From Streptomyces bathyalis (GTDB lineage: Bacteria > Actinomycetota > Actinomycetes > Streptomycetales > Streptomycetaceae): a stretch of DNA of 64,000 nt. The DNA is taken from the NCBI RefSeq assembly GCF_015910445.1, contig NZ_CP048882.1, positions 868,001-932,000 on the forward strand, written 5' to 3'. Below are positions 16,428-31,888 of the stretch, in pieces. Position 1 is the stretch's first letter. Each line of letters starts with the position of its first letter. A model generated the notes under the pieces. That model saw nothing but the letters and a program-made list of their open reading frames with translations, was not told the origin of the DNA and made no database searches. The position numbers and the translations under genes are program-made.

Positions 16428-17222
16428 ATGACTCTGATGACCTCGTCCGCCTCGTCCAACCCGCCCGGATCGTCCACTTCGTCCGATTCGGCCGTGGAAT
16501 CCGGCTCAGCCGGCCCGTCCGCGGGCTCACGCGGCCGCTTCTCCCTGCCCGCCGTGCTGGTGATCGTGGTGGCGGCAGCGCTGATCGTGTCGGGCATCGA
16601 TCCGTACGACCGTGCCACCTGGCTGATGGAGACGTTCTGGATCATCCTCGGGCTGCCGCTCGCCGTGCTGGTGTGGCGCCGCTTCCCGCTGACGGGGCTG
16701 CTGTGCTGTCTGCTCGCCCTGCACGCCCTGATCCTGGTTCACGGCGGCCAGTACACGTATGCGCGGACTCCCGTGGGCGAGTGGCTGCGGGACTGGTTCG
16801 GGCTGGCCCGCAATCCCTACGACAGGGTGGGCCACTTCGCGCAGGGGTTCGTTCCCGCGGTGCTCGTGAGGGAGATCATGGTCCGGCGCTCGCCGCTGAG
16901 CGGCAGCCGCTGGCTGGCACCGATGGTCGTGTGCGGCTGTGTGGCCTTCAGCGCCTTCTTCGAGATGATCGAGTGGTGGGCTGCGCTGATCGGGGGTTCG
17001 GCAGCGGACGACTTCCTCGCCACACAGGGCGACGTGTGGGACACCCAGTGGGACATGTTCCTCGCCCTCGTCGGCGCGACGTCGGCGCTGCTTCTCCTCA
17101 GCAGGGTGCACGACCGGCAACTCGCCGGCCTCCAGAGGCAGTTCGCCGCTGCCGGTCCGGAATGTCCCCCGTCGCTCAGCGGGGCTCCCGGTGGGCCGGG
17201 CCCTGCTGGCCGTGGTCGGTGA
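16428..17222 (+). CDS. DUF2238 (YjdF-like) membrane protein
   Basis: The 264-residue protein starts with a Ser/Gly-rich cytoplasmic tail of about 35 residues, then has six hydrophobic segments. The family motifs NPYDRVGHFAQGFVPAVLVREI and FFEMIEWWAAL and the segment GDVWDTQWDMFLA, with conserved His, Glu and Asp in membrane-facing positions, are characteristic of DUF2238/YjdF. Function is unknown in the family. The 3' end overlaps the convergent LysR gene by 47 bases, which is unusual but both frames look real. A shorter protein ending before the overlap is not possible because no stop intervenes. Confidence 0.82.
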   Translation: MTLMTSSASSNPPGSSTSSDSAVESGSAGPSAGSRGRFSLPAVLVIVVAAALIVSGIDPYDRATWLMETFWIILGLPLAVLVWRRFPLTGLLCCLLALHALILVHGGQYTYARTPVGEWLRDWFGLARNPYDRVGHFAQGFVPAVLVREIMVRRSPLSGSRWLAPMVVCGCVAFSAFFEMIEWWAALIGGSAADDFLATQGDVWDTQWDMFLALVGATSALLLLSRVHDRQLAGLQRQFAAAGPECPPSLSGAPGGPGPAGRGR

Positions 17223-18150
17223 GCCAGGCCGGGTACTGCGGGTTGTTGCCGATGGCGTCGGCGTAGGCCTTCTCGGCGTGTTCGACGAGCGCCGCCCCGT
17301 GAGCGGCCAGGGCGCTCTCCCGGTGCCATACCAGGGAGTGCCGCAGCCGTAGCGGTGTCCCCTTCAGCGGGCGCGGCACGATGCCCGGAGTGCTGCGGAA
17401 GGTGGCCTGACCGAGGCCGATCGCCGCCCCGGCCACGATGAGTTCGCGTGCCGCGGCCGCCTCCGCCTCGTGCTGGACGACGGCGGTGAAGCCGGCACCG
17501 GTGCATGCCGCGGCGAAGGCGTCGTGCAGACCGCTCCCCTGGCTGGGTGGCAACACCCATACGTCCTCAGCCAGTTCGCCCAGCCCGAGCATCGGCCGTC
17601 CCGCCATCGGATGCTCCTCGGGGAGGAGCACGAACGCCGGCTCGATCGCCACCACACGCTGCTCCACCTCACGGCGCGGTGGCCGCGCGCTTCCCTCGTA
17701 CTCGACGAGCGCGCCCAGGTCCTGCTGCCGCGCGGCGACGAGGTCGAGAACGGTCGCGACGTCGGGCTCGGTGCGCAACTTCGCCTCCGCGCCGGGGAAG
17801 AGGGACCGCAGAGGGCCCAGCAGCCGCACCATCAGCGGCCCCGGATTGGCGACGTAGCGCAGGGACAACCGGCCGTCCGAGAAGCCGAGATGGGACAGGA
17901 CCTCCTGCTGCACGGAGTCCAGTTGCGGCAGAAGCTCGCGGGCCTTCGCGACGACCAGTTCCCCCAGAGCCGTCGGGCTGGCACCGCCCCGATGCCGTAC
18001 GAACAGCGGGCCGCCCAGCATGCGTTCGATGCGCTGCAGCTGCGCGGTCAGGGACGGCTGGGAGAGTCCGAGCACGGCAGCCGCCCTGGTCAGGCTCCCC
18101 GCGTCCGCCACGGCCCGGATCACTCGGAGGTGGCGCACTTCGAGGTCCAT
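17176..18150 (-). CDS. LysR-family transcriptional regulator next to the isonitrile genes
   Basis: The 324-residue protein has an N-terminal LysR helix-turn-helix (VRHLRVIRAVADAGSLTRAAAVLGLSQ, about residues 5-31) and a C-terminal substrate-binding domain with GELVVAKARELLPQL and a typical effector cleft. It is divergent from isnA across 107 bases, so it is the likely pathway activator. There is no ribosome site at the ATG. TAGCAT (18157-18162) ends 6 bases upstream, which suggests a leaderless message. The C-terminal coding end overlaps the convergent DUF2238 gene. Confidence 0.9.
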   Translation of the reverse strand: MDLEVRHLRVIRAVADAGSLTRAAAVLGLSQPSLTAQLQRIERMLGGPLFVRHRGGASPTALGELVVAKARELLPQLDSVQQEVLSHLGFSDGRLSLRYVANPGPLMVRLLGPLRSLFPGAEAKLRTEPDVATVLDLVAARQQDLGALVEYEGSARPPRREVEQRVVAIEPAFVLLPEEHPMAGRPMLGLGELAEDVWVLPPSQGSGLHDAFAAACTGAGFTAVVQHEAEAAAARELIVAGAAIGLGQATFRSTPGIVPRPLKGTPLRLRHSLVWHRESALAAHGAALVEHAEKAYADAIGNNPQYPAWLTDHGQQGPAHREPR

Positions 18151-18204
18151 CACACGATGCTATGTCCAGGTGGGATGGGCAGGGAGCGGGCGTCGGCGGG
18201 CATC

Positions 18205-18214
18205 GTGAGTTCAC
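18205..18214. promoter_or_regulatory. short palindrome between LysR gene and isnA
   Basis: GTGA-GT-TCAC is centred in the divergent region and could be part of a LysR recognition site. A second short dyad, CATC-N4-GATG (18148-18159), overlaps the LysR start. Confidence 0.3.
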
Positions 18215-18257
18215 GGCGCACCAGCCACCCCCCACCACATCCGCGAGGAGCCGTCGC

Positions 18258-19349
18258 ATGCTCACTTCGCATGCCCTGCCCACATCCGGCGCCAGGGAGC
18301 GGGCGAACGAGATAGCCGGACTGCTGCTGGGCCACCAGCGAAGACCGGACCGTAACCGGCACCAACAACCCGGGGACTGCCGGGAGTTACCCTGCGCCGA
18401 CTGCCGGGCCACCCAGGCCCGCGTGATCGAGGCGTTCGTGCTCGCCGGGCAGCCTGTACGTCTCGTACTGCCCGCCTTCCCCGGCAAGTCACCGAACCGC
18501 GCCAAGGTACTGGGGACCCTGCCCGACATGGCCGAGGAACGGGCCCTGGAGTACCTCGACTCCCTCACCGCCTCGATCCGGGAGATCCATCCGCCCGGCG
18601 CGGAGATCGTGATCTGTTCCGACGGCCGTGTCTTCAGCGACGCCGTCGGCATACCGGACGACGACATCACCGCCTACCACCGGGAGTTGCGGACGATGAT
18701 CGCCGCGCTCCCCCACGTCGGGGTCTCGCTCTTCACGCTCGACCAGGTCCCCGAATTCGCGGGACTTCCGCACGACACGATGCGCAAGGTGCTCACCGAA
18801 CGCCACGCCGTTCCTCTGGACCGACTGCGCGACGGCGTGCGGCGCGGCGAGGAGCTGCCGCTCTACAGAGCCATCACCCGCTTCCTCTTCGAGGACGGCA
18901 ACACACCTGAATACAAGGGAAGCAGGGCCGCACTGCAGAGGGACGCACGGGCGCGTGCCTACGTCGTCATCCAGCGCAGCAAGGCCTGGGGCGAGTTCCT
19001 CGCTCAGCGTTTCCCCGGCTCCGTCCGGCTCTCCATCCATCCCCAGCCCTGTTCCGCGCTCAAGCTGGGCATCCGGCTGGGCGAGTCGACCGGCACCTGG
19101 CTCACCCCGTGGCACGGGGTCGCCGTCGACCTCGGCGGACGGCTGGTGCTGATGAAGCGGTCGGAGGCCGAAGCCCTCGACTGCGACGTCGTCGAACGCG
19201 GGGGCCGCCCGAGCCACTTCGTCCTGCGGGGGCCGGCCCGCTCCGCGCACGAGGACCTCCTCCGGCACCCCGCGGCACGTACGGGCGCCGCCACCGCACC
19301 GAGCGCGTCCACCGCATGCGCCGTACCCACCGAATCGAAGGAGTGGTGA
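18258..19349 (+). CDS. isnA: isonitrile (isocyanide) synthase, IsnA/PvcA/Dit1 family
   Basis: The 363-residue protein matches the Dit1/PvcA fold family, which converts the amine of tyrosine or tryptophan into an isonitrile using ribulose 5-phosphate as carbon source. Landmarks are FVLAGQPVRLVLPAFPGKSPN, GTLPDMAEERAL, VICSDGRVFSD, the basic run RNRHQQ near the N-terminus, and late SIHPQP and WLTPWHGVAV segments. The start has GAGGAG 8 bases upstream. Codon 44 (18387-18389) is TTA, the rare leucine codon read by the bldA tRNA in Streptomyces, so translation is probably delayed to development. It is followed directly by the oxygenase gene. Tyr versus Trp preference cannot be told by eye. Confidence 0.9.
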   Translation: MLTSHALPTSGARERANEIAGLLLGHQRRPDRNRHQQPGDCRELPCADCRATQARVIEAFVLAGQPVRLVLPAFPGKSPNRAKVLGTLPDMAEERALEYLDSLTASIREIHPPGAEIVICSDGRVFSDAVGIPDDDITAYHRELRTMIAALPHVGVSLFTLDQVPEFAGLPHDTMRKVLTERHAVPLDRLRDGVRRGEELPLYRAITRFLFEDGNTPEYKGSRAALQRDARARAYVVIQRSKAWGEFLAQRFPGSVRLSIHPQPCSALKLGIRLGESTGTWLTPWHGVAVDLGGRLVLMKRSEAEALDCDVVERGGRPSHFVLRGPARSAHEDLLRHPAARTGAATAPSASTACAVPTESKEW

Positions 19350-19351
19350 CC

Positions 19352-20209
19352 TTGACCATCAGCACCCCTGCCCGTCCGCCCCTCGCCGGCTTCGGAGCCG
19401 TCGTCGAGGCCGCCTCGCCGGGCGAGCGGCTGGAAGCGCTTCCCGTGGAGGAACTGCGCGAACTGGTCCGCAGCCACCACCTTCTGCTGCTGCGCGGCTT
19501 CACACCCTTCGCGGACGGCGAGGAACTGGCGGCGTACTGCGCGCGCTGGGGTGAGATCAGCATGTGGCCGTTCGGTGCGGTGCTCGAACTGGTGGAGCAC
19601 GAGAACCCCGAGGACCACATCTTCGACCACCGGCACGTACCGCTGCACTGGGACGGCATGTACCGCCCCCAGGTGCCCGAGTTCCAGCTCTTCCACTGCG
19701 TCGACGCACCGGGCCACGACCAGGGCGGCGGGACGGTCTTCTCACAGACCTCGGCCGTGCTCCGGGACGCGGAGCCGGGCGCACGCGCGCTGTGGGAACA
19801 GGTCACCGGGATCTACCGCCGCAAGATGGAGTTCTACGAGAGCACAGCCGTCTCGCCCGTGGTCGGCGAACACCCCGTCACCGGGGAGCCGGTGATCCGC
19901 TACAACGAACCGGTCGCTCCCGACGACGAGTTCATCAACCACCCGGTCCTGGAGTTCACCGGAGTGCCCGCCGCGCGGCTCGAGGAATTCCACCGCGGTC
20001 TGAGCAAGGCCCTGCGCGCCCCCGGTTACGCGTACACGCACCAGTGGCGCACGGGCGACCTCGTCGTCGCCGACAACTACACGCTGCTCCACGGCCGGGA
20101 GGCGTTCACCAGCCGTGCCCCCCGCCATCTGCGCCGCGTGCACGTGCTCGGTGACCCGCCGCTGGAGAATCCGGCGCTGCGTGCGGGCGGCCGGCCACCC
20201 GGCAGCTGA
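19352..20209 (+). CDS. isnB: Fe(II)/2-oxoglutarate oxygenase, IsnB/PvcB type
   Basis: The 285-residue protein belongs to the TauD/CAS-like oxygenases. The iron ligands are His99 and Asp101 in HWD and His247 in LLHGRE; Arg258 is suitably placed to bind 2-oxoglutarate. PvcB/IsnB enzymes act right after the isonitrile synthase and usually give the vinyl isonitrile by oxidative decarboxylation. The TTG at 19352 sits 8 bases after AAGGAG; GTG 19346 overlaps the isnA stop but is only 2 bases from that site. The two genes are therefore coupled. An alternative outcome, such as hydroxylation, is known for relatives. Confidence 0.87.
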   Translation: MTISTPARPPLAGFGAVVEAASPGERLEALPVEELRELVRSHHLLLLRGFTPFADGEELAAYCARWGEISMWPFGAVLELVEHENPEDHIFDHRHVPLHWDGMYRPQVPEFQLFHCVDAPGHDQGGGTVFSQTSAVLRDAEPGARALWEQVTGIYRRKMEFYESTAVSPVVGEHPVTGEPVIRYNEPVAPDDEFINHPVLEFTGVPAARLEEFHRGLSKALRAPGYAYTHQWRTGDLVVADNYTLLHGREAFTSRAPRHLRRVHVLGDPPLENPALRAGGRPPGS

Positions 20210-20217
20210 CCACGGCT

Positions 20218-20285
20218 CACGGACGCAACGACGGCACCTGCACCCCCACCCCTGCAGGGTCCCCCACGCCGGCGTTGCGTCCGTG
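20218..20285 (+). terminator. very strong hairpin closing the isnAB unit
   Basis: CACGGACGCAACG (20218-20230) and CGTTGCGTCCGTG (20273-20285) pair perfectly for 13 bp. After one mismatch, CGGC (20232-20235) pairs with GCCG (20268-20271). The inner part contains the smaller palindrome CCTGCAGG. No T-run follows. Confidence 0.6.
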
Positions 20286-29467: not shown

Positions 29468-31888
29468 ATGTTCATGGCACTGCCCGATCGGAGCCGAGTG
29501 GTCGTCATCGGTGGCGGCGTCGTCGGCTGCAGCATCGCTTACCACCTCGCGGGGCGCGGGTGGAGCGACGTCCTGCTGGTCGAGCGCAAGAACCTCACCC
29601 ACGGCAGCACATGGCATGCCGCCGGACTCGTGGGCCAGTTGAGAGGGTCCAGCAACCTCACGCGGCTGATGCGCAAGAGCGTGGAGACGTACCGGACCCT
29701 GGAGGAGTCCACGGGTTGTGCCACCGGATGGCGCGGCGTCGGCTCCGTACGCGTCGCCGCCTGCGCGGACCGGTGGGAGGAGCTGAAGCGGCTGGCGACC
29801 GCGGGCAAGAGCTTCGGCTTCGACGTCCACCTGGCCTCGCCCTCGGAGGCGAAGGAACTGTTCCCGCTGCTGGAGACCGACGGCCTGTACGGGGCTACGT
29901 GGGTGCCCGGCGACGGCTACGTCGACCCGAGCCAGCTGACCCAGGCCTTCGCCACGGGAGCCCGCGCCGCCGGTGTGCGCATCGTCCAGAACTGCCGCGT
30001 GGAGGCCGTCGAACGCCGGGGCCGCAGGGTGACGGCTGTGGTCACCGAGCAGGGCCGCGTCGAGTGCGACGTCGTCGTGAACGCAACCGGGATGTGGGGC
30101 ACGGAGACGGCGCGGCTCGCGGGAGTGGACGTCGCCGCGGGAATGGTGGAGCACCAGTACGTGGTGACGGAGAAGACGCCCGAGGTGCCACCGGACCTGC
30201 CGACGTTCCGCGACCCCGACGCCCGCATCTATCTCAAGCCGGAGACCGGAGCCCTGCTCGTCGGTGGCTGGGAGGACGGAACCCGCGTGCCGTGGCGCAC
30301 CATCCCGCGGGACCTGGGGCCCGAGCTGTTCACACCGGACATGGACCGCTTCGCGCCGCTCGCGGAGGGCGCCACCACCAGAGTGCCGGCGTTCGGCGAC
30401 CTGGGGATTCAGACGTGGGTCAACGGGCCGATCCCCTTCTCGCCCGACGCGGAACCCTTGATGGGCGTCACCGAGGGCCTGGACAACCTCTTCCACTGCT
30501 GCGGATTCTCAGCGGGCGTCGCGGCGGCGGGCGGTGCCGGTGACGCGATGGCGAACTGGATCGTCGACGGCGATCCGGGCATGGATCTGTGGCCCTTCGA
30601 CGTCCGCCGCTTCGGAGCGTCGCACAACGTGCCCGCCTATCTGGAGCAGCGCGTGGTGGGCGCGTACGAGAACTACTACCGACTGCACTACCCCAACAGC
30701 GAGTTGGCGGCCCCGCGCGGTCAGCGGCGCAGCCCCCTGCACGACGTGCTGCTCTCGCGCGGCGCGGTCTTCGGCACCAAGTACGGCTGGGAGCGGGCGA
30801 ATTGGTTCGCGCCGCCCGGTGTGGACCCGGTCGAGGAGCCGACATTCGGACGCAGCAACGCCTGGCCGCACATCGGGGAGGAGCACCGCGCGGTGCGCGA
30901 GGGCGTGGGAGTGGTCGACCGGACGTCGCTCGCCAAGGTCGAGATCTCGGGGCCCGGCGCACTCGCCCTGATGCAGAGGACCGCCGGCGCGGACCTCGAC
31001 GTCGCGCCGGGTCGCGTCGTGCACACCCAACTGCTCAACGTGCGGGGCGGCATCGAGGCGGACGTGACGGTCACCCGCCTCGCGGAGGAGCTGTTCCTCC
31101 TCGTCACGGGGAGCGCGTCCGGACGCCACGACCTTACGTTCCTGCTCCAGAACGCGCCCGACGACGGTTCGGTGACCGTACGGGACGTCACCTCCGCCTG
31201 GGGCGTGCTCGAGGTGTGCGGGCCGCGGGCGGGCGATGTCGTGCGGCAGTTGAGCCGATGCGACTTCGGCGACCACGCGTTCGGGTTCATGACCGCCCGG
31301 GAGGCCGATCTGGGTTTCGCACCGGTGCGGGCTCTGCGGGTGACGTGCGTCGGCGAGGCCGGCTGGCAATTCCACATCCCCACCGAGTACATGCGGGGCG
31401 TGTACGACCAACTCCTGGCCGCCGGCGCGGAGTCCGGGATCCGGGACGTGGGCTGGAGGGCGGTCGACTCGCTGCGTCTGGAGAAGCAGATCCCGCTCTG
31501 GCCGGCCGACATCGGCAGCGACCACAGCCCGTACCAGGCGGGGCTCGGCTCCGGGGTCCGTCCGGACAAGCCGGGATTGCTGGCCGGGCCGGCGCTGCGC
31601 AAGCTGCGGGACGAGCGCCCGGCGAAGAGGCTGTGCTGGTTCTCCACCGACGCGGACGTGGTGATGCACGGCGGTGAACTGGTGACGCGGGCCGGCACGG
31701 ATCTGGCCGCGGGTGTGAGGAGTGCGGGCTACGGCTGGACGGTGGGCAGAACCATCTTCAGCGCCTATGTGCCCGAGGAGTCCGCTCACGGCTCGGCCTT
31801 CCAAGTGGAGGTCGCGGGGCGCAGGTTCGACGCGACGCGCCACGACGCACCCCTCCACGACCCCGACGGGAAGAACTTCCGTACCTGA
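29468..31888 (+). CDS. FAD-dependent dimethylglycine/sarcosine dehydrogenase-like protein with GcvT domain (A)
   Basis: The 806-residue protein has an N-terminal FAD domain (Rossmann GGGVVG at 15-20), the motif GSTWHAAGL with His50 in the place of the covalent flavin histidine of dimethylglycine dehydrogenase, and a C-terminal GcvT/aminomethyltransferase half (from about residue 440; KVEISGPGALALMQR, GGIEADVTVTRL, SLRLEKQIP). The family oxidises N-methyl groups and passes the one-carbon unit to tetrahydrofolate. ATG 29474 is an equally good start; neither has a ribosome site. It begins a four-gene unit. The methylated substrate is not evident. Confidence 0.87.
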   Translation: MFMALPDRSRVVVIGGGVVGCSIAYHLAGRGWSDVLLVERKNLTHGSTWHAAGLVGQLRGSSNLTRLMRKSVETYRTLEESTGCATGWRGVGSVRVAACADRWEELKRLATAGKSFGFDVHLASPSEAKELFPLLETDGLYGATWVPGDGYVDPSQLTQAFATGARAAGVRIVQNCRVEAVERRGRRVTAVVTEQGRVECDVVVNATGMWGTETARLAGVDVAAGMVEHQYVVTEKTPEVPPDLPTFRDPDARIYLKPETGALLVGGWEDGTRVPWRTIPRDLGPELFTPDMDRFAPLAEGATTRVPAFGDLGIQTWVNGPIPFSPDAEPLMGVTEGLDNLFHCCGFSAGVAAAGGAGDAMANWIVDGDPGMDLWPFDVRRFGASHNVPAYLEQRVVGAYENYYRLHYPNSELAAPRGQRRSPLHDVLLSRGAVFGTKYGWERANWFAPPGVDPVEEPTFGRSNAWPHIGEEHRAVREGVGVVDRTSLAKVEISGPGALALMQRTAGADLDVAPGRVVHTQLLNVRGGIEADVTVTRLAEELFLLVTGSASGRHDLTFLLQNAPDDGSVTVRDVTSAWGVLEVCGPRAGDVVRQLSRCDFGDHAFGFMTAREADLGFAPVRALRVTCVGEAGWQFHIPTEYMRGVYDQLLAAGAESGIRDVGWRAVDSLRLEKQIPLWPADIGSDHSPYQAGLGSGVRPDKPGLLAGPALRKLRDERPAKRLCWFSTDADVVMHGGELVTRAGTDLAAGVRSAGYGWTVGRTIFSAYVPEESAHGSAFQVEVAGRRFDATRHDAPLHDPDGKNFRT

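Follow-up and report, generated by a model that had tools for sequence, protein, structure and literature searches.

What does a compact three-gene isonitrile locus on the chromosome of Streptomyces bathyalis make, and how is it controlled? The locus lies in a stretch of 64,000 nucleotides (the window) that covers 868–932 kb of a single-contig 7.38-Mb Streptomyces chromosome (NZ_CP048882.1), and was first noted in a reading of the letters and their open reading frames (ORFs), referred to here as the sequence-only reading. It is composed of lysR, which encodes a LysR-type regulator (17176–18150, minus strand), and of two genes that diverge from it on the plus strand: isnA (18258–19349), for a PvcA/IsnA-type isonitrile (isocyanide) synthase, and isnB (19352–20209), for a PvcB/IsnB-type Fe(II)/2-oxoglutarate oxygenase. 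Taken together, the evidence gives moderate confidence in a compact vinyl-isonitrile unit as the explanation of the whole locus, with 4-(2-isocyanovinyl)phenol or its formamide as the most likely predicted product. The locus is a compact representative of the IsnA/IsnB kind, is carried by a small Streptomyces clade and is probably under LysR control.

The assignment of the two enzymes is the firmest part of this explanation. IsnA (363 aa, ATG to TGA) matches the DIT1_PvcA profile PF05141 at 230.2 bits (cut-off 26.4; E 4.5e-68) over profile positions 1–269 of 273, and isnA is the sole match to this profile in its own genome at E 0.001. Its best solved relative is PvcA (3e59; phmmer, E 6e-84), with which it shares 47.5% identity over 305 columns, compared with 43.2% for 9dhm. 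Both results agree with the placement in the PvcA family proposed in the sequence-only reading, which had named the loss of conserved family residues as the sign of an error. No such loss was found: in an alignment of 53 rows, among them that of the window itself and those of two duplicate loci, IsnA retains all 56 columns that are near-invariant (conservation of at least 93%).

IsnB matches TauD (PF02668) at 165.8 bits, and its best solved relatives are PvcB (3eat; phmmer, 290 bits, E 2e-85) followed by PIsnB (7tcl; 262 bits). Numbered from a GTG at 19346, it keeps the Fe ligands H101, D103 and H249 and the carboxylate anchor R264 and W74, corresponding to H101, D103, H250, R265 and W74 in PIsnB. 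This GTG would give a protein of 287 aa and overlaps the isnA stop; the reading frame is open to the TGA at 20209. A TTG at 19352 (285 aa) is the more likely start, because a ribosome-binding-like AAGGAG is well spaced from it and S. albidus has an ATG at about the same place. From these profiles and residues, isnA and isnB almost certainly form an isonitrile synthase/oxygenase pair. Two observations weigh against a full assignment of function. IsnA scores 298.7 bits against the NCBIfam L-tyrosine isonitrile synthase model NF045653, below its 600-bit equivalog cut-off, and yeast Dit1, a member of the same family, is reported in an excerpt of PMC7345447 as not being an isocyanide synthase, so family membership does not ensure isocyanide chemistry.

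The frames and Pfam families also agree with a coupled isnA and isnB behind a divergent lysR, although lysR itself (324 aa from the ATG at 18150, or 325 from a GTG; HTH_1 and LysR_substrate domains) lies to the left of the interval first drawn for the locus. As was claimed then, no glycosyltransferase, non-ribosomal peptide synthetase or polyketide synthase is near, at least among 20 neighbouring ORFs scanned for domains, a selection from about 6.0–32.9 kb of the window. No exporter belongs to the LysR-isnA-isnB unit, a point against the explanation as a whole.

Is this arrangement specific to one strain? The IsnA tree groups the window with five other Streptomyces sequences in a clade with support 100/99, comprising the window strain, S. 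albidus, S. abyssalis, S. nanshensis, strain HNM0575 and, most distantly, S. cinnamoneus; several deeper forks of this tree and its long rows (L037 and L040_2) are unsure. All six loci carry a divergent LysR orthologue and isnA followed by isnB. The LysR orthologues beside isnA are 84–88% identical to that of the window in four of the Streptomyces and 60% identical in S. cinnamoneus. The window and its four nearest relatives (L032–L035) are termed here the compact loci, while the S. cinnamoneus locus is L036. According to our own gene calls, the left-hand neighbour gene is different in each of the five compact loci, and the right-hand neighbour is different in the four with continuing sequence (L034 ends 85 nt past isnB). 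Amino acid permeases, DUF2238 and DoxX are found near the window, L033 and L035 loci, arranged differently. Because LysR-isnA-isnB recurs with differing neighbours, it can be regarded as a bordered unit, and the compact three-gene reading is borne out in five other Streptomyces.

These genes are under purifying selection. The ratio of non-synonymous to synonymous substitution rates (dN/dS) between the window and its four nearest orthologues is 0.26–0.31 for isnA, 0.17–0.21 for isnB and 0.14–0.23 for lysR, and reaches 0.40–0.43 against S. cinnamoneus. A search for additional clade members by way of LysR gave matches of at least 60% identity in 4 of 392 genomes of the genus, counting its own. 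Re-centred on S. abyssalis, the search found no others than these three among 391 genomes, and in the family sample one of 150 genomes matched, its own. Thirteen plasmid records held a LysR match, all below 60% identity. PF05141 itself is matched in 59 of 295 sampled Streptomyces genomes, the window's own and a few fragments included, or about a fifth. The suggestion that the actinomycete version of these pathways is less described thus needs qualifying: counted by genomes, the PvcA family is no rarity in Streptomyces. To our knowledge, few Streptomyces members of the PvcA family have been tied to a product.

Conservation between the divergent genes points to local control. An imperfect dyad, CATCACACGATGCTATG, lies over the lysR start codon (18148–18164) and has a T-N11-A core, the classic spacing of a LysR box. 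Its form is present in all six loci, including S. cinnamoneus, from which the search pattern was itself derived, and the 64-kb window contains one match to it. The dyad matches at only 8–12 of 17 positions. It is a probable, predicted LysR recognition box. A second conserved block, GGGCATCGTG (18198–18207), is invariant in the window and L032–L035 and absent from S. cinnamoneus. In the window, GCATCGTG of GGGCATCGTG repeats CACGATGC of the CATCACACGATGCTATG box exactly, in inverted orientation. The inverted arms are exact over 8 nt in the window and L032 and imperfect over 11 nt in L034, with none reported for L033 and L035. As the 8-mer arm occurs seven times in the window, this inverted repeat alone proves little. 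A sigma-70 promoter scan returned no match. On the lysR strand TAGCAT stands six bases ahead of the lysR ATG, and the gene could be leaderless. Overall, the operator-like conservation makes it likely that LysR controls the locus locally.

Whether a second layer of control exists is less certain. The sequence-only reading had proposed probable control by bldA, the UUA-reading transfer RNA (tRNA), on the strength of a TTA at codon 44 of isnA. This codon is real and in frame (18387–18389, plus strand), is the lone TTA in the window's three genes, and the genome has a tRNA-Leu(UAA) gene (anticodon TAA) at about 4.859 Mb. Conservation of the codon itself was rejected, since none of five isnA orthologues carries a TTA. 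In the four nearest relatives, one TTA is found in lysR instead: at codon 267 in S. albidus and HNM0575, codon 262 in S. abyssalis and codon 200 in S. nanshensis (numbered as in the window; the L034 sequence starts one codon late, so that the same codon is its 199th). The window's lysR has no TTA; at codon 267 it reads CTA, a single base away from the TTA that two relatives have there. Each of the five compact loci therefore has exactly one TTA, at four distinct sites overall. This pattern was found on looking and was not predicted beforehand.

The competing explanation is that the isnA TTA is a chance rare codon of no regulatory meaning and that LysR alone controls the locus. It draws on the missing conservation of codon 44 and on the genus-wide picture, in which most TTA codons are described as poorly conserved, with frequent enrichment in genes for transcription (PMC10327506, in part). 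Set against it is the rarity of TTA in the background, with 19 of 454 genes carrying one in these species (genes as called by our own script; the first 15 codons excluded there and kept in the locus). From this, 0.13–0.20 TTA would be expected per locus and 0.65–0.98 in total, giving a Poisson P of 0.0006–0.003 for five if the loci are independent. Several points erode this figure and weigh against a bldA gate. The compact loci are not fully independent, as two share codon 267, so shared ancestry raises the chance of five in five above the independent estimate. S. cinnamoneus has no TTA in lysR, isnA or isnB. Related genes carry TTA above background, in 3 of 16 LysR genes, 4 of 39 isnA and none of 12 isnB, and with these rates the chance of five in five becomes about 0.0015–0.007, again if independent. 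The isnA and isnB rows of this control come from Streptomyces only, S. cinnamoneus among them, minus two duplicate loci and the four near orthologues, and the LysR homologues are those with loci from matches in 119 genomes; the three LysR-control TTAs all fall at codons 5–6 of the stretch that matched and may go back to a single inherited event. Finally, TTG is used in the locus at 1.5–1.9 times its background frequency, suggesting somewhat relaxed leucine codon use. Because TTG is a neighbour codon of TTA, this weakens the bldA case, and scaling by it gives P 0.009–0.019 for five TTA. CTA is not enriched, with 2 CTA and 5 TTA in the locus compared with 66 and 20 in the background.

On balance, a chance codon is the less probable of the two explanations, while retaining a substantial share of the probability, and bldA gating of the locus is modestly favoured. 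The original proposal is thus strengthened at the level of the locus, with moderate statistics; the codon on which it was based is not conserved. The pattern is suggestive of a bldA gate kept for the locus as a whole. More tentatively, the gate could be selected for the whole unit while the codon moves, having shifted from lysR to isnA in the window lineage. A parallel is offered by the amf (SapB) clusters, whose enzymes are unrelated and whose product is lanthipeptide-like. Most of these clusters, according to an excerpt of PMC4255298, likewise have a TTA, be it in the regulator or in a biosynthetic gene.

The next question is which product IsnB would form. In PIsnB numbering, K or R at 107 with N or H at 188 is reported to mark vinyl-isonitrile formers, and L with C to mark isocyanoacrylate formers; the same source states that this rule correctly forecast the product of one previously untested enzyme (PMC9467999, 2022, in part). 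IsnB has R107 and N187 (numbered from the GTG; equivalent to PIsnB 107 and 188) and is thus of the vinyl-isonitrile type. All six members of the clade have Arg and Asn at these positions, in contrast to the L and C of PvcB. A vinyl isonitrile, as opposed to an isocyanoacrylate, is therefore predicted with good confidence.

The alternative is that IsnB acts as PvcB does in the paerucumarin pathway and yields a tyrosine-derived isocyanoacrylate. Overall similarity leans this way and against a vinyl product, since IsnB is 50.9% identical to PvcB and 43.2% to PIsnB, and IsnA is likewise nearer to PvcA than to 9dhm. The HpaB-type enzyme encoded beside isnB in related clusters also presumably resembles PvcC of Pseudomonas aeruginosa, which would fit the same chemistry. 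In addition, single mutations at 107 and 188 left the product unchanged in the experiments excerpted from PMC9467999, so that selectivity is not switched by one diagnostic residue. Nevertheless, with Arg in place of Leu and Asn in place of Cys throughout the clade, and with the forecast upheld for one enzyme, the acrylate is considered unlikely.

Beyond the clade, IsnB relatives are more varied. In the homologues at L003, L013, L017 and L038–L040, the His-Trp-Asp motif is followed by Gly-Ala-Phe in place of Gly-Met-Tyr, and the diagnostic positions (V, A or L at the first and A at the second) fit neither of the two product signatures. These could possibly represent a third reaction type. The relatives at L016 and L029 differ again, with V and L at the diagnostic positions.

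For the substrate, the sequence-only reading had left tyrosine and tryptophan side by side in proposing a simple vinyl isonitrile; the vinyl part agrees with the residues of IsnB, and the wider gene context argues for tyrosine. In S. cinnamoneus, isnB is followed by an HpaB-type 4-hydroxyphenylacetate 3-hydroxylase gene. The order isnA-isnB-HpaB, then an asparagine-synthase-type amidotransferase gene, is found in L037 (a metagenome-assembled genome (MAG) labelled cyanobacterial) and in the Streptomyces loci L078–L082. A LigB-type extradiol dioxygenase was also matched in L037, L079, L080 and L082, and a flavin reductase in L079. All five Streptomyces loci have a SARP-like regulator (BTAD, NB-ARC), to which the L037 MAG gave no match; the Pfam scans covered one or two representatives of each type. 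HpaB thus adjoins isnB in S. cinnamoneus and two other lineages. HpaB works on para-hydroxyphenyl compounds, and the presence of this phenol hydroxylase beside isnB makes tyrosine the likelier substrate. The pocket residues W102, M105 and Y106 of the tyrosine-using PIsnB are also identical in IsnB. Tyrosine is consequently judged the probable substrate.

Tryptophan would instead give an indole vinyl isonitrile, as do IsnA/IsnB from environmental DNA (eDNA) and WelI1/WelI3. The eDNA IsnA uses tryptophan, and the vinyl-isonitrile signature is blind to the choice between the two amino acids. Hapalindole-type cyanobacterial relatives are also described as producing an indole isonitrile (PMC4236562, in part). 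The phylum sample of the L037 genome matched in one of 292, itself, and the alignment and tree contain no tryptophan-type row. Given the HpaB neighbours and the shared pocket residues, tryptophan is improbable, slightly more so than the acrylate.

The compact loci do not share the HpaB gene: L032, L033 and L035 gave no match. One candidate explanation, that the missing HpaB is encoded elsewhere in the genome, was rejected. The only HpaB homologue of the window's genome is a distant one (32% identity) about 0.36 Mb away, and HpaB was found in neither of the S. albidus and S. nanshensis genomes, whose completeness was not shown; for S. abyssalis and HNM0575 the check covered their loci. That the locus is a decayed remnant of a larger isonitrile cluster, its product lost, would fit the HpaB gene of L036 and the HpaB, amidotransferase and mostly LigB genes beside isnAB in L037 and L078–L082, and is very improbable given the open frames, dN/dS well below 1 against four near relatives, intact conserved residues and conserved promoter region.

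For a vinyl-isonitrile unit, the following route can be proposed. IsnA would convert the amino group of L-tyrosine to an isonitrile with a carbon from ribulose-5-phosphate, as established for PvcA/IsnA relatives. IsnB would then carry out a decarboxylation-assisted desaturation to 4-(2-isocyanovinyl)phenol, as its diagnostic residues suggest. LysR would bind the conserved box between the divergent genes and control isnAB and itself, while the bldA tRNA may additionally gate translation, via isnA codon 44 here and via lysR in the relatives. By analogy, the end product, or the formamide formed by its hydration, could serve as a metal-binding or copper-enzyme-inhibiting metabolite. Hydration of the predicted product would yield N-(4-hydroxystyryl)formamide, and an excerpt of PMC6390358 states that this formamide was isolated from Streptomyces amakusaensis. 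Weighing against this route, no biochemical data were found for any clade member. Among the matches listed from openly licensed papers, none concerned this locus.

Several known systems can be compared with the unit. PvcA/PvcB of P. aeruginosa (paerucumarin) likewise pairs the two enzymes in adjacent genes and shares the conserved residues; in contrast, the present unit is without an HpaB-type gene, has vinyl-type diagnostic residues and lies beside a LysR gene on a Streptomyces chromosome. Rhabduscin clusters include a glycosyltransferase, whereas none was found among the ORFs scanned near this unit. PIsnB of the rhabduscin pathway has in common with IsnB the vinyl-isonitrile signature and, as predicted here, tyrosine chemistry (PMC9467999, in part). 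The Streptomyces loci L078–L082 share the isnA-isnB pair and, in IsnB, this signature (Arg together with either Asn or His) but have the SARP-like regulator in place of LysR and extra tailoring genes. We know of no described product for the isnA-isnB-HpaB-amidotransferase clusters of L078–L082 and L037.

The predicted chemistry is of a known kind, and what is less usual is the single TTA per locus in the unit and its four nearest relatives, mostly at differing places. The unit is small enough to be cloned whole and its product can be forecast, while isonitrile-reactive probes exist (an excerpt of PMC13005658). If the TTA gate is real and mobile between regulator and enzyme, the clade would provide a compact test of selection on the bldA dependence of a cluster as against a given codon.

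Downstream of isnB, a hairpin is present at 20218–20285 (plus strand), with a perfect 13-bp outer stem (20218–20230/20273–20285). The claim that an exceptionally strong hairpin ends the locus stands as regards stability: it folds at -45.1 kcal/mol (z -4.7), and none of 200 shuffles was as stable. Its role as a canonical intrinsic terminator is not supported, as no T-run follows. It was also not in the list of a terminator scan, whose loop limit of 8 would exclude so long a loop. In the 110 nt after isnB of five relatives (85 nt in L034), the hairpin was not seen, and these stretches, folded without a shuffle test, fold otherwise. The hairpin is thus outside the conserved unit, and may end the transcript or protect and stabilise it.

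Other arrangements of isnA occur in the family. Two isnA-like genes are found per locus in L038 and L040, with second copies 27% and 34% identical to the window's isnA; these recall the I1/I2 pairs of cyanobacteria. Six Streptomyces loci from the largest group in the IsnA tree, L121–L126, have isnA without isnB nearby. An MFS gene is present in all six, a P450 gene in five and an asparagine-synthase-type amidotransferase gene in four, as are genes for an ABC ATPase, an FecCD permease and a periplasmic binding protein (four of six each; calls from our own script, Pfam on L124 and L125). This looks like a pathway to a dimeric tyrosine isonitrile amide with metallophore uptake; the predicted amide is presumably hazimycin-like.

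Elsewhere in the window, a gene at 29468–31888 encodes a fusion of an FAD-dependent oxidoreductase (DAO) with a GCV_T aminomethyltransferase domain. It is preceded by a GntR/UTRA regulator gene and followed by a choline-kinase-like gene, and this region is a probable methylated-amine catabolism island.

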